From: Candidatus Rifleibacteriota bacterium
GTDB taxonomy: Bacteria > UBP17 > UBA6191 > JACPRK01
Assembly: GCA_016213865.1 (NCBI GenBank)
Contig: JACQZL010000122.1
Location: 1-5,365 of the forward strand
DNA length: 5,365 nucleotides
Direction of reading: 5' to 3'
Part shown: positions 175 to 5,250 of the stretch, one piece after another
How the letters are laid out: each line of letters starts with the position of its first letter
How positions within the stretch are numbered: position 1 is the stretch's first letter
Position numbers and translations under genes: made by a program
The notes under the pieces: model-generated
Database searches by the model: none
The model's input: the letters and a program-made list of their open reading frames with translations, nothing else
What the model was told of the DNA's origin: nothing

Positions 175-380
175 CATGGGACTGGAGGCCTGATCGTAGG
201 CATCGACCTGGAATCGGGTACCTCGAGCCTGGCTCCTGCGGCCTTCGGTCTCGCTTCACTAGCCATCGGCGAGCAGGCGCGCCGTCATGAGAGGCAATAG
301 CGACATGGGCCGTATCATCATGGCATCGTCTTTGCTTACTCCTTCGGGCCGTGGGGACTGATCTCGACCTGCTTTTCTGT

Positions 381-460: not shown

Positions 461-2260
461 ATGGCCACTGTGAAGGGAATCCCTCAGGGGGTCCTGGACG
501 AGATCCGAGAACGGGCAGACATCGTAGCAGTAGTCTCCGATCACGTCCTGTTGAAGCGTGCGGGGGCGAACTTCTCCGGCCTCTGTCCGTTCCACTCCGA
601 AAAGACCCCGTCGTTCACCGTCCATCCCGGGAAACGTATCTTCCACTGCTTCGGCTGTGGTGTCGGAGGCGACGTCTTCAGTTTCGTGATGCGGATCCAG
701 AACATTTCCTTCCCTGCCGCCATCGAAAAACTGGCGATGCAGGTCGGGCTTGATCTGACCCCTTACCGCGGCCGCGAGAGCGACGTGGACTTCGCGCGCA
801 TCCACAATCTGATGCGAGAGGCCCAGGGCTTTTTCAAGCGGGCCCTGGCCGCCGCGCCGGCCGCTCGCGCCTACCTGGAGAAGCGTGGGCTGACCGCGCA
901 GACGATCCGCGAATTCGGGATCGGGTACGCGCCCGACGAGTGGCGGGCGGCGACCGATCACCTCACCTCCCGCGGCTACACGCGCGACGAACTGGTCACC
1001 TTCGGCCTCGTGCGCCGTGGCAAGGAAGACAGCGTCTACGACTACTTCCGGGGCCGCGTGGTCTTCCCCATCGAAGACGAGTTCGCCAAACCCGTCGGGT
1101 TCGGCGGTCGCATCCTGGGCGACGGCAACCCCAAGTACCTCAACTCCCCCGAGAGCGCCGTCTACAGCAAGGGCAGGATGCTCTTCAACCTGCACCGGGC
1201 GGCCCCCGCTGCGGCCGAGGCCGGGATGACTCTCCTGCTGGTCGAGGGGTACATGGACGTCATCGGCTTGTGGCAGGCAGGCTTCCACCACGTGGTGGCC
1301 ACGCTCGGAACGGCCCTGACCGAAACCCAGGTGCGCAAGCTGGCCAAGGTGGCGAAGCACCTCGTATTTGCGTACGATCCTGATGCAGCGGGTGTGAAGG
1401 CGACCCTTCGGGCGTTGCCGCTACTGGAAAAAACTGGTCTGGAAGTCTCGATGTTGCGGTTGCCCCAGGGGGTGGATCCGGACGAGTTCGTCCAGGAAAA
1501 CGGCGCCGACGCCCTCCAGGAGCGGCTACATCAGGGTCAACCGGTCGAGCAGTTCCTCTTCGAAGCCACGCGCGACCGGCATCCCAACTGGAAGAGCCCG
1601 GAAGGCAAGCGGCTAGCCATGCGCGACATGATCGAAGTCTTCGGCCTGTTGCCGTCCGTCCTCTCGCAGCAAGCCTTCGTGGAGCGGGTGGCCGACTGCT
1701 TCGAGATCGGCGAGGAGCTCGTTCGCAAGGCCCTGATGGGCCAGGGAGACCGCGCGGCGGCCCCCGTGGACGCCACGCCGACCCGGCCCCATGCCATCTC
1801 ACCGCTCGTGCAGGCCGAGCGGACTCTCATCTACTGCTTTCTCACCGATTTCGCGACGTACCGGAAGGTCTCCTCCGATATGCGCATCTCGGAGTTCCGC
1901 GACCCCTACTGCAAGAAGCTCCTCCAGATCCTGGCGGAGATCGACCAAGAGGCCGGTCCCGTCACGAGCCTTCTGCTGGACACTTGCGAGGACGAGGAAC
2001 TCCGTCGATTCATCACCGCCGAGCTCATGGTACGCCCGACGGTGGACGAAGCCGGCGTCGAGGCGATGCTCGACGACTGCCTGAGAGAATTGAAAAAACA
2101 CCGGCTGGAAGCTCGTAAGCGTGAGCTGCAGCGGCAGGTTTCCAGCAGTGGTGCAAGCGACGCGGCTCTCCTTCGAGAGTTCAAGCAGGTCACGGAGGAT
2201 CTGCAGTCGCTGTTGAAGGGTCCGGGAGCGCCGGCCGCATCGGCGCCTCGGGCCGGATAG
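461..2260 (+). CDS. dnaG: DNA primase DnaG
   Basis: DnaG makes the short RNA primers that start leading-strand and Okazaki-fragment synthesis, working with the replicative helicase DnaB at the fork. The 599-residue product is of normal length for the family. Residues 1-100 form the CHC2 zinc-binding domain, with ligands C42, H45, C63 and C66. The RNA polymerase core follows (about 110-430), including the basic motif KYLNSPES near 225-232. The TOPRIM fold has its glutamate in VEGYMDV (E262) and its metal-binding aspartates in YDPDAAG (D306, D308); proline replaces the glycine often found between these aspartates. Residues about 445-585 are mostly helical and charged and match the position of the helicase-binding domain. 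The start is supported by GGGAG upstream and by the family-typical early sequence IPQGVLDEIRERADIVAVV. rpoD follows after six bases, so the two are very probably cotranscribed and perhaps translationally coupled. Confidence 0.98.
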   Translation: MATVKGIPQGVLDEIRERADIVAVVSDHVLLKRAGANFSGLCPFHSEKTPSFTVHPGKRIFHCFGCGVGGDVFSFVMRIQNISFPAAIEKLAMQVGLDLTPYRGRESDVDFARIHNLMREAQGFFKRALAAAPAARAYLEKRGLTAQTIREFGIGYAPDEWRAATDHLTSRGYTRDELVTFGLVRRGKEDSVYDYFRGRVVFPIEDEFAKPVGFGGRILGDGNPKYLNSPESAVYSKGRMLFNLHRAAPAAAEAGMTLLLVEGYMDVIGLWQAGFHHVVATLGTALTETQVRKLAKVAKHLVFAYDPDAAGVKATLRALPLLEKTGLEVSMLRLPQGVDPDEFVQENGADALQERLHQGQPVEQFLFEATRDRHPNWKSPEGKRLAMRDMIEVFGLLPSVLSQQAFVERVADCFEIGEELVRKALMGQGDRAAAPVDATPTRPHAISPLVQAERTLIYCFLTDFATYRKVSSDMRISEFRDPYCKKLLQILAEIDQEAGPVTSLLLDTCEDEELRRFITAELMVRPTVDEAGVEAMLDDCLRELKKHRLEARKRELQRQVSSSGASDAALLREFKQVTEDLQSLLKGPGAPAASAPRAG

Positions 2261-2262
2261 GA
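2259..2262 (+). promoter_or_regulatory. Ribosome binding site of rpoD, overlapping the dnaG stop
   Basis: AGGA shares two bases with the TAG stop of dnaG and lies four bases before the GTG at 2267. This favours 2267 as the start and suggests that ribosomes finishing dnaG feed rpoD translation. Alternative in-frame starts are GTG at 2273 and ATG at 2282, which would shorten the protein by two or five residues and matter little. Confidence 0.45.
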
Positions 2263-2266
2263 ACAG

Positions 2267-3736
2267 GTGCAAGTGGGCAAGATGGATTTGAAGGTTGCAG
2301 GGAACAAGGTCACGAGCGACGAACCCACGACCGAATCTGGACCCAAGTTTGTCATGGAGCAACGCCGACCGCCGAGAGTGCCCGCGCCCAAGCGTGAGCC
2401 CGGGGATCGCCACAGCCAGGGCGTTTGGCCCAAGGCCGGCGCCAGTCCGCAGCCACGACCGCACGAGGCCGAGCGGACGGTCGTCCTGCCGAAGGCAGTC
2501 CGAGACGTCCCGCGGCACTCCAACGGCAAGGCTGCCAAGGACGGAAGGAACGCCGACAGCATGATCACCAAGGTGGTGCCACCCAGGCGCGCCAATCCGG
2601 CAAAGGCCTGCCCCGGGTCGTCCCACGACGACAACCCTCAGGCCAAGCTCCAGCAGCAACCTCCGGGCGAGCGAGACCCTCGCCCCCTGGCTCCGGCGCG
2701 CGCGCCCGCGGCTCAGACCACGCCGGCGGCCAAGCAGTCTTGCCGCCCGCACGGACGCAACGAACCCTGCGGCCGGCAGCGGCGCCATGACGACAAGAAC
2801 CGGGCGCCGAAGCAGGTTGCCCCTCCGGCGGTGCAGCATCCGGTCCACCCGGCAGCCCCATCGGCCGGATCGAAGCCGGCGCACCCGGAAGCAAGCCGCC
2901 ACCGGGACGCCCAGTTCAAGCACCCCCACGCCGAAGCCAAGGCCAAGGCTCCCCACGGCCATCCCGACTCGCGTCACGACAGCGCTCGGTCGACCAACCC
3001 CGAGCCGCACCAGCAGGCGGCCCGGCCCGCGAACCCGGATCGCCAGCCCCGCCGGCACGAGTCCCCCAAGGCCAACACCTCCGCGCGGCCCGCGCCTCGC
3101 GTCCCCGAGAACCGTGACCCACGGCCGAAGAACACCAAGCCCACCGGCAAGACCGTGGAGGCAGGGCAGCCGTCTCAGTCCACCCAGGGCCCTGCCCCTC
3201 GAAACGCCGCTCCTCAGACCATGTCCAGGAGCGAACGACGCAGGGCTAGAAGGGCCCACGCTCACGGGCAGCCGCGCGTGCAGCCGCCTCGCGAGGATCG
3301 CAAGCCGTTGCCTCCTCAGGAGGCGGCGGCCCAATCGTCGGCTCCGGCGTCCGTCAAGGACCAAAGAGACCAGGCCAACCACCGGGTCGCTCCGTCCCTG
3401 ACGTTCCGCCGCAACGCCCCGGGGCCCCAGCAGGCCTCCGCCCGGCCACCGGCCAAGTCGCCCGCTGCTCGACCGCAGAAGGCGCCGGCCCAGTCCAAGG
3501 CCCAGCAGACGCCTCCCCAGCACGGCAACCGCCCCAACCTTGTCACCAAGGGCAGAAAGGCCCAGATTCCGCCGAGCGGGCCCATCCCGACGTCGGGGCT
3601 CCAGCCCGTCTCGGGGCCGGCTCGGATCCGCGCTTCCCGCTCCAGTCTTGCCGACTCGCGACCGGTCATGACCCGTCCCGCCGCCCCTCCACGGCCTCGG
3701 GCCAGTTCCTCCAGCCGTCCGGGCGGCCACGGCGGC
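2267..3736 (+). other. Disordered Pro/Ala/Arg-rich extension of RpoD (residues 1-490)
   Basis: By hand count about 84 of the first 490 residues are proline (roughly 17%). Alanine, arginine, glutamine, lysine and histidine make up much of the rest. Aromatic residues are almost absent: I see only W54, F28, F217 and F380, and no tyrosine. No globular domain, membrane segment or exact repeat unit is evident. The segment contains a histidine-rich stretch (residues 191-248) and an arginine cluster ([14 protein letters not shown], from residue 321). It is therefore most likely an intrinsically disordered, positively charged tail. Actinobacterial primary sigma factors also carry long charged N-terminal tails, so the principle is known, but I do not recognise this sequence. 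Confidence 0.8.
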
Positions 3737-4807
3737 GAGACCGAGAGCATGCTGGGCTGCGAGGACGCTCGCGCCCTCATGACGATGCCGTCGCTCCGCG
3801 CCAACCTGGGCGAGGCGATGGACGCCGAAGCCGGCCTGGCCGTCGCGGCCCCGGCCGAGTCCGAAGCCGAGGTGGTCAGCCGCGGTGGCATCGAGGCCTG
3901 GGAAGTGATGGCCGCAGCCGGAGCCAAGCCGATGCCGGCACCGGTCCACAAGCCCAGCTCCGAGTACACCCCCGGCTCCTACGCGGACGCCATCAAGATC
4001 TACCTGCAGGAGATCGGCCGCACGCCACTGCTCTCCTCGGCCGAAGAGGTCGAACTGGCCAAGCGCATCGAGAAGCACGACCACCTCGCGCACGAGGCGC
4101 TGGTCAAGGCGAACCTCAAGCTGGTCGTCAGCGTGGCCAAGAAGTACGTCAACCGCGGCATGGGCCTCCTCGACCTCATCCAGGAGGGCAACCAGGGCCT
4201 CATCCGGGCCGTCGAGAAGTTCAAGTACCAGAAGGGCTTCAAGTTCAGCACCTACGCGATGTGGTGGATCCGCCAGGCCATCACCCGAGCCCTGGCCGAT
4301 CAGAGCCGGCTCATCCGGGTTCCCGTCCACATGGTCGAGAACATCAACCGGGTGCGCAAGGTCGCCCGCATGCTGACCCAGCGTCTGGGCCGCGAGCCGA
4401 GCAAGGAAGAGATCGCCGTCGACATGAACCTCCCGCTCGAAAAGGTCGAGCACATCCTGAAGGTGGCCCAGGAGCCCGTCTCGCTCGAGACCCCCATCTC
4501 CAGCCAGGACGACGGCAACCTGGGCAACTTCGTCGCCGACGAGACCGCTGTCTCGCCCACCGACGAGGTCGCCAACACGATGCTCAAGGAGCAGATCCAG
4601 AGCGTGCTGTCGACTCTGCACGGCCGCGAGCGGGACGTCATCCGCTACCGGTTCGGCATAGGTCAGACCCAGCAGCTCACGCTGGAGGAAGTGGGTCAGA
4701 AGTTCGGCGTCACCCGCGAGCGGATCCGACAGATCGAGGCCAAGGCGCTCTCGCGCCTGCGCCACCCGACCCGCAGCCGCAAGCTGGAGGACTTCTACCA
4801 CAAGTAG
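2267..4807 (+). CDS. rpoD: Primary sigma-70 factor RpoD (SigA) with very long N-terminal extension
   Basis: This is the housekeeping sigma factor that directs RNA polymerase to -10/-35 promoters. The 846-residue product has a typical sigma core only at its C-terminal end: region 1.2 (about 572-605, [18 protein letters not shown]), regions 2.1-2.4 (about 609-689, with [17 protein letters not shown] and the -10 recognition helix [20 protein letters not shown]), region 3 including the 3.2 finger (about 690-768), and region 4 with the -35 helix-turn-helix ([20 protein letters not shown], 805-824). There is no large non-conserved insert between 1.2 and 2.1. Residues 1-490 are a proline-rich, basic, predicted disordered extension; 491-566 are acidic. 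E. coli RpoD is 613 residues and B. subtilis SigA 371, so this is unusually long. The frame stays open with G/C third positions and AAG lysines throughout, which argues that the extension is really translated. It sits six bases after dnaG. Confidence 0.96.
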
Positions 4808-4925
4808 GCCCGAGGCTCCGGGGTCGAGGCGAAGGACACCCGAGGCTCGAGGCTTCGAGCTCGAGCCGGGCAGTCTGGAGCTTCTGCCCGGTGCGAGCGG
4901 CGGCCACATCCGAGACGAGACTGAC
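4808..4925. other. rpoD-tRNA spacer with direct repeat and overlapping hairpins
   Basis: CCCGAGGCTC occurs twice, at 4809-4818 and 4839-4848. The second copy starts a hairpin: CCC (4839-4841), a GA bulge, GGCTCGAG (4844-4851), an 8-nt loop, CTCGAGCC (4860-4867) and GGG (4868-4870). A second perfect 8-bp hairpin has arms CCGGGCAG (4866-4873) and CTGCCCGG (4884-4891) around a 10-nt loop. They share 4866-4870, so only one can form fully at a time. No T tract follows either, so neither is a standard intrinsic terminator. They may mark the 3' end or a processing site of the rpoD message. No clear promoter for the tRNA is visible. Confidence 0.6.
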
Positions 4926-4999
4926 GGGCCTATAGCTCAGTTGGTTAGAGCGGGCGGCTCATAACCGCTTGGTCCCAGGTTCGAATCCTGGTAGGCCCA
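4926..4999 (+). tRNA. tRNA with anticodon CAT, probably tRNA-Ile2 (lysidine type)
   Basis: The cloverleaf folds cleanly. The acceptor stem GGGCCTA (4926-4932) pairs perfectly with TAGGCCC (4992-4998), with discriminator A at 4999. The D arm is GCTC/GAGC. The anticodon stem GGCGG (4953-4957) pairs with CCGCT (4965-4969), with one G-T pair, around loop CTCATAA with anticodon CAT at 4960-4962. The T stem CCAGG/CCTGG encloses TTCGAAT. The 3' CCA is not encoded. It is not the initiator, because position 1 pairs normally with 72 and the GGG/CCC triple of the anticodon stem is missing. Consecutive C4-G69 and C5-G68 pairs, which in E. coli mark tRNA-Ile2 for TilS against elongator tRNA-Met, are both present, and the CTCATAACCG segment resembles Ile2 of Bacillus as I recall it. 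Confidence is about 0.97 for a tRNA and 0.75 for Ile2 rather than elongator Met. Confidence 0.9.
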
Positions 5000-5037: not shown

Positions 5038-5081
5038 TGGAAGCCTTACCCCGCTTCATGCACTGCCTTCGGGCGAGCAGA

Positions 5082-5105
5082 GTAGAAGCGGCATCTTGCC
5101 GCTTC
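5082..5105 (+). repeat. REP-like unit 1 (GTAG foot plus hairpin)
   Basis: GTAG at 5082-5085 stands at the 5' foot of a hairpin with arms GAAGCGGCA (5085-5093) and TGCCGCTTC (5097-5105) and a 3-nt loop TCT. It matches the reverse complement of unit 2 at 21 of 24 positions; the differences lie only at the stem tip and loop. REP elements mobilised by RAYT (TnpA-REP) enzymes have this GTAG-plus-hairpin layout. Confidence 0.65.
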
Positions 5106-5142
5106 CGCCTGCCCGGCGCGCTCTCGAACTGACAGCGTCGGT

Positions 5143-5166
5143 GAAGCGGCTGGAAGCCGCTTCTAC
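5143..5166 (-). repeat. REP-like unit 2, inverted partner of unit 1
   Basis: On the minus strand this reads GTAG followed by the same hairpin. On the + strand the arms are GAAGCGGCT (5143-5151) and AGCCGCTTC (5155-5163), with loop GGA, then TAC. With unit 1 it forms an inverted pair 37 bp apart whose outer 11 bases (5082-5092 and 5156-5166) are perfectly complementary. The loop and stem-tip changes against unit 1 keep the pairing, which suggests selection on structure. Confidence 0.65.
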
Positions 5167-5250
5167 CCTCGGGTCTTCGGCGCCTGGAGGGCGTCGGGGA
5201 ACTATCTCAGGCCACCAGGCATTATTGCTGCCTCGAGTGAAAAGGTCTTG

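Follow-up and report, generated by a model that had tools for sequence, protein, structure and literature searches.

The stretch of DNA analysed here (the window, 5,365 nucleotides of contig JACQZL010000122.1, assigned to a Candidatus Rifleibacteriota bacterium) carries on its + strand the gene for DNA primase, dnaG, followed by a gene for an RpoD-like sigma factor and a tRNA-Met gene (Table 1). The sigma gene is one uninterrupted open frame running from GTG 2267 to its stop. Because an in-frame GTG at 2273 is conserved in the three best-matching loci (L001-L003) and GTG 2267 is not, the start was placed at GTG 2273, probably giving a protein of 844 amino acids; the nearest protein, P0001, begins as deposited with a Met that aligns with the window ATG at 2282. 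An antisense open frame of 1036 codons (1799-4909, - strand) overlies the sigma gene and is most likely an artefact of GC-rich DNA. Downstream of the tRNA gene lies an imperfect inverted repeat (5079-5169) with 27-nt arms that are 85% complementary, and the stem pattern built from it was absent from all 177 loci fetched.

Table 1. Positions of genes and sigma factor segments in the window; residues are counted from GTG 2267.
Feature	Position	Strand	Evidence or remark
dnaG, DNA primase, 599 aa	461..2260	+	TIGR01391 434.7 bits, cut-off 283.6; directly upstream of sigma gene
Long-tailed RpoD-like sigma factor (846 codons when counted from GTG 2267)	2267..4807	+	
Distal tail, residues 3-372, Pro/Arg/Ala/Gln/His-rich, basic, fast-evolving, disordered by composition	2273..3382	+	
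Proximal tail, residues 373-489	3383..3733	+	Short stretches common with P0001
Acidic junction, residues 490-569, net -8	3734..3973	+	Occupies the would-be place of region 1.1
Sigma-70 core, regions 1.2 to 4.2, residues 570-846	3974..4804	+	Pfam PF00140, PF04542, PF04539, PF04545
Asn 754 in LGNF, sigma-finger region	4526..4528	+	
tRNA-Met (CAT)	4926..4999	+	Also 3' of sigma gene in L001-L003

The C-terminal 277 residues form a complete sigma-70 core, in which Pfam places regions 1.2, 2, 3 and 4 at residues 574-833; no further Pfam family was found in the frame at E 0.001. An earlier sequence-only reading had described about 490 basic residues, rich in Pro, Ala and Arg, joined in frame to this core and making up more than half of the protein, and both statements hold, residues 1-490 representing 58% of it. 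The 569 residues ahead of region 1.2 contain 62 Arg and 32 Lys against 22 Asp and 28 Glu (net +44), with 16% Pro, 15.3% Ala and 6 Phe, Trp or Tyr in all, in keeping with the description of the tail as nearly free of aromatic residues. Its proposed disorder agrees with the composition and with charge-hydropathy values that put the tails of the window, P0001 and L001-L003 on the disordered side, and DnaG and the sigma core on the ordered side. The AlphaFold2 model, based on 8 sequences, was weak (mean pLDDT 43), with ten-residue blocks scoring 31-42 over residues 1-490 and 32-86 in the core; the low confidence in the tail is weakly consistent with disorder, given the shallow alignment.

The tail bears the marks of a translated sequence. 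It is G/C-rich at third codon positions, as previously noted (GC by codon position 0.73/0.62/0.81, a weaker signal than the 0.65/0.35/0.94 of the core), and the codon-position periodicity of its GC content is significant (p = 2e-10). It has no in-frame stop; mononucleotide shuffles contained 6.8 on average, and 0 of 2000 were stop-free. Open length alone is nevertheless little proof, because one antisense frame is likewise stop-free across the tail. Tail and core share one frame in all four close relatives (L001, L002 and L003 as DNA, P0001 as protein only), with neither a stop nor a frameshift between them. The tails of L002 and L003 align over 418 codons without a gap, with dS of 0.26, dN of 0.086 and dN/dS of 0.33 (bootstrap 95% CI 0.24-0.45), and on this comparative sequence evidence the tail is translated and under moderate constraint in the relatives. 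On the same alignment and dN/dS, the idea that a GC-rich frame had stayed open by chance was rejected. That the tail might be the Lys/Ala-rich tail of the relatives read out of frame was also rejected, the other + strand frames across the window tail not being Lys/Ala-rich by eye. If translation started instead at the internal ATG of GETESML (3749-3751), the sigma factor would measure ~350 residues and the upstream frame would be open by accident. This ATG is present in the window and in L001-L003, and P0001 has a Met there, but the upstream frame evolves as protein in L002-L003, the in-frame GTG just behind dnaG is conserved, and by eye no clear Shine-Dalgarno sequence precedes the internal ATG; we regard such a start as very improbable.

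Judged from its sequence, the window gene is a member of the sigma-70 family and RpoD-like (groups 1/2). The RpoD C-terminal model TIGR02393 matches with 358.3 bits, barely above its cut-off of 354, and the full-length RpoD models stay below theirs (PRK05658, 435.7 of 555; PRK09210, 426.3 of 572). The stretches of regions 2.4 and 4.2 follow the usual pattern; the pattern used for region 2.4 was too strict, so that in the six rows left unmatched the region is not missing. The nearest named relatives are metagenome-assembled genomes (MAGs) of Candidatus Wallbacteria, also labelled Candidatus Walliibacteriota, among them the three loci L001-L003. P0001 shares 89% identity with the window protein over residues 480-846 and 97% across 273 columns of the core. 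Fourteen of the 120 listed proteins were read in sequence and 12, picked by hand, entered a core tree of 58 rows, from which seven rows with duplicate cores had been dropped and most of the loci L008-L080 left out. In this tree the window joins P0001 (supports 99/99), then L001 and L003 (100/99; the L002 core is the same as that of L003), and then P0004-P0006 as the closest outgroup (100/100). The window thus falls among Wallbacteria, separately from L013 and L033 and outside the actinobacterial SigA clade. In the sigma-finger region, the window, P0001, L001 and L002 read LGNF, and the other 38 of 42 sigma rows, many of them closely related, read LGDF.

The genomic setting is that of rpoD. Of the 39 genomes searched in the phylum, 37 contain a dnaG that passes the cut-off, and 36 of the 37 have an RpoD above its cut-off nearby on the same contig (the exception being G032, with dnaG at a contig end), which places the window gene in the rpoD position. 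Thirty of the 36 dnaG-linked RpoD frames span 284-454 codons, three span 543-562 (G037-G039), and three, in the related genomes G001-G003, reach 792-802. G016 has two RpoD frames that pass the cut-off, of 454 and 399 codons, only one of them near a dnaG. Two of the three related genomes also hold a second RpoD over the TIGR02393 cut-off, namely G002 (740-codon frame, L123:3600-5822, - strand) and G003 (606-codon frame, L122:2133-3953, - strand); none was found over that cut-off in G001, a genome of unstated completeness. A related RpoD of 808 codons is present in G032 (L121:2791-5217, - strand). These genes (L121, L122/L081 and L123/L082, with P0026 and P0030) make up clade B of the core tree, beside which the dnaG-linked clade A sits on a longer branch, with long branches flagged. 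Like the window gene, clade-B RpoDs carry a basic disordered tail before the core, but they differ from it in having region 1.1 between tail and core: it exceeds the Pfam cut-off in L122 (the G003 copy, from which the G002 copy differs there by 1 residue) and in L121, is sub-threshold in P0026 and is unrecorded for P0030. The stretches read at L121-L123 contained no dnaG, and the 10 neighbouring frames scanned gave no clue to the role of these genes. Second RpoD genes in MAGs may stem from misbinning.

Region 1.1 occurs only in group 1 sigma factors, where it occludes the DNA-binding parts of the free protein and acts as a DNA mimic in the polymerase channel, according to the available text of PMC4598750. 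In the window, region 1.1 (PF03979) was not found at E 0.001, and P0001, L001 and L002 gave no Pfam match to it at E 1. The junction that occupies its place is conserved and acidic (net charge -7 or -8 in the window, P0001 and L001-L003), with the motifs GETESMLG and GGI(E/D)AW. As a query, the P0001 junction recovered only P0001 among 1571 candidates. A hidden region 1.1 in the junction was unsupported by profile comparison, which stayed below 1% with a junction profile of five similar rows that could miss a very diverged 1.1. The outgroup P0004-P0006 resembles the window in having a basic N-terminal part (region 1.2 is preceded by 289-493 residues), but has Asp in LGDF, lacks the 13-letter junction sequence and shows a 1.1-like N terminus. 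In these proteins, residues 1 to about 58 resemble region 1.1 (in hhalign, 85.8% with E 5e-6 for the clade-B profile and 70.7% with E 4e-5 for one made from other RpoDs), and region 1.2 follows after a basic linker of roughly 230-430 residues. P0004-P0006 thus probably still have region 1.1 at the extreme N terminus. In the simplest history, a basic linker would have expanded between regions 1.1 and 1.2, and the clade of the window would later have lost region 1.1; because Pfam reports no region 1.1 in P0004-P0006, such a loss, as opposed to original absence, is likely but falls short of certainty.

These observations qualify the label of housekeeping sigma factor given to the gene in the sequence-only reading. 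The position behind dnaG and the family model speak for it; the failure to find region 1.1 speaks against it, as does the presence in two of the three related genomes of a further RpoD that has region 1.1 and sits on a shorter branch. Because of these features and of LGNF, we do not file the gene as a canonical group-1 sigma. The apparent loss of region 1.1, the long branch and the sigma-finger change from Asp to Asn point to a specialised copy. The tailed, dnaG-linked copy could accordingly be a group-2-like paralog devoted to a regulon or condition, with the clade-B RpoD doing the bulk of transcription. The narrow TIGR02393 score and the lack of region 1.1 in alternative sigmas (available text of PMC4598750) would fit such a paralog, as would the second RpoDs of G002 and G003, the latter with a recognised region 1.1. 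On the other side stand the rpoD position shared with 36 of 37 genomes, the ordinary region 2.4 and 4.2 stretches, the lack of a second RpoD over the cut-off in G001, the chance of misbinning elsewhere, and a core that is 95-100% identical among the window and L001-L003 (pairs compared), with dN/dS of 0-0.07. We consider the paralog a serious possibility, if somewhat short of an even one.

The rates of tail and core were compared, as had been proposed. Between L002 and L003 the junction and core show zero amino-acid changes (core dN/dS 0, against 0.33 in the tail), and between L001 and L002 the tail has a dN/dS of 0.37 (0.27-0.48) and the core 0.02. Against L002 and L001, respectively, the window gives 0.93 and 0.77 for the tail (21-27% identity, poor alignment and dS of about 1.3, near saturation), 0.91 and 0.74 for the well-aligned junction, and 0.07 and 0.06 for the core. 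As the window tail and junction thus reach 0.74-0.93, the claim of constraint is limited to the relatives and does not extend to the branch of the window. Synonymous divergence between L002 (4855-6108) and L003 (5575-6828) is about three times higher in the tail (dS 0.26) than in the core (0.09), for which we have no explanation beyond codon bias or recombination.

In the L002-L003 pair, the single pair close enough for a gap-free alignment and one that does not include the window, 103 of 104 basic positions of the tail were kept, while 59 of the 314 other positions changed (255 kept; Fisher p 2e-7), pointing to selection for positive charge. One gain or loss of a basic residue was observed, compared with 23.4 expected from the 4-fold-site spectrum of the tail (minimum 11 in 5000 draws) and 19.6 under flat rates (minimum 6). 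The second RpoD that these two genomes also carry served as a control, and its tail displayed no basic bias (6/46 versus 30/184, p 0.66), so that in this one pair clade-B tails, unlike those of the window's relatives, do not preferentially keep their basic positions. Between L001 and L002, at 48% identity and with uncertain alignment, a basic residue was gained or lost in 62 of 204 tail changes. The net charge of the N-terminal part, counted from the likely start, is +44 in the window, +75 in P0001, +95 in L001, +87 in L002 and +85 in L003; per residue, the window tail is less basic (+0.11) than the other four (+0.20 to +0.23).

The two parts of the tail differ in conservation. The proximal part has 1 amino-acid change in 98 codons, and the window shares with P0001 the short stretches RVAPSLxFRR (373-382), PPSGPIP (435-441) and one of 19 letters (from 449). 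Residues 1-380 resemble the relatives little above the level of shuffles, and a search with residues 1-570 against 7981 candidates gave no hit at E 0.001. A near-neutral disordered spacer, grown by mutation in a GC-rich genome and kept merely soluble and open, would account for the hardly alignable distal tail, for its variable length and composition (K-rich in the relatives, R/H/Q/P-rich in the window), for the high dN/dS on the window's branch and for the Pro/Ala/Arg-rich character of other frames in the same DNA. It sits poorly with the dN/dS values of the two closer pairs, which lie far below 1, with the selective retention of basic positions in L002-L003 and with the nearly invariant proximal part, and we consider it improbable.

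The kept positive charges fit a tail that binds nucleic acid or another polyanion. We infer that the tail may act as a tethered polycation, holding sigma or the holoenzyme on DNA through non-specific phosphate contacts; as an antenna, it would raise the local concentration and speed promoter search or closed-complex formation, and the acidic 13-letter junction sequence would stand in for the region 1.1 gate near the polymerase channel. That such a DNA tether took over the N terminus, with the junction substituting for the gate, appears to us the best of the readings considered, if close to evenly balanced between right and wrong. The partner of the tail might instead be polyphosphate, RNA or an acidic protein, or the tail might cluster RNA polymerase in condensates: a polycation with conserved charge and few aromatic residues would bind polyanions of any kind, although the scarcity of aromatics would argue against aromatic-driven self-association. 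We rate a partner other than DNA as unlikely, if a shade less so than the neutral spacer.

The DNA tether can be set against Mycobacterium SigA, which, according to the available text of PMC10011835, is a primary sigma factor that likewise has a long, disordered N terminus, one that matters there for function. That N terminus is shorter than the tail of the window (207-225 versus about 490 residues), and its stretch needed for transcription, residues 132-179, is mainly acidic. In the same text, N-terminal truncations of SigA caused no significant change in promoter-DNA affinity by SPR, a result that would count against a DNA tether in the window.

The sequence-only reading had held that known primary sigma factors bear either a short region 1.1 or the actinobacterial tail, which proved too narrow, Lys/Ala-rich extensions being found on the RpoD frames of several sampled groups. 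Ten long RpoD frames were fetched from phylum samples and, chosen for length, give no frequency; at the limits used, a match was present in 107/139 genomes of the phylum of G043 (an actinomycete), 134/139 of that of G042 (a Clostridiales-titled locus) and 136/140 of that of G045 (from L060). In L170 and L171, from the phylum of L013 (an actinomycete), a 1.1-like N terminus, a Lys/Ala-rich linker and the core follow one another by eye, the arrangement of P0004-P0006. L173-L176 (phylum sample of L060, titled Rickettsiales), P0068 and P0088 share with the window a basic N-terminal RpoD tail, of histone H1-like K/A composition, but this tail is under about 350 residues and accompanied by region 1.1, recognised by Pfam in P0068 and P0088 and by eye in L173-L176. 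In L172-L177, 138-325 residues of open frame precede region 1.2, which leaves the remaining length of these frames to the core or to what follows it. Two candidates for long tails were rejected, L168, whose frame runs on from dnaG-like sequence upstream, and L169, in which the first Met is residue 437 of the open frame. Histone H1-like HC2 (PF07382) has a comparable Lys/Ala/Pro composition; it matched P0006 below threshold (26.5 bits, cut-off 40) and did not match the window at E 0.001. A literature search, with subscription papers mostly outside its scope, yielded no paper on this tail among the matches listed, which is not proof that none is in print. Basic RpoD extensions are not unique to the window, and disordered N-terminal tails are known on the primary sigma factors of several bacterial groups.

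Taken in full, the reading would be that a primary-type sigma factor gave up the region 1.1 gate in exchange for a very long polycation, with nearly every charge selected, and changed its sigma finger, possibly beside a second RpoD with an ordinary gate; transcription would then start with a machine equipped with a DNA-binding tether of its own. On the sequences compared here, we find this complete combination somewhat unlikely. The function of tails on primary sigma factors is poorly known, and the lineage of the window offers a natural experiment in whether the autoinhibitory gate of a sigma factor can be replaced by a basic tail: it has nearly identical cores, relatives whose tail goes with a probable region 1.1, others with a tail but no region 1.1, and a paralog in the same genomes with no sign of charge selection in its tail.
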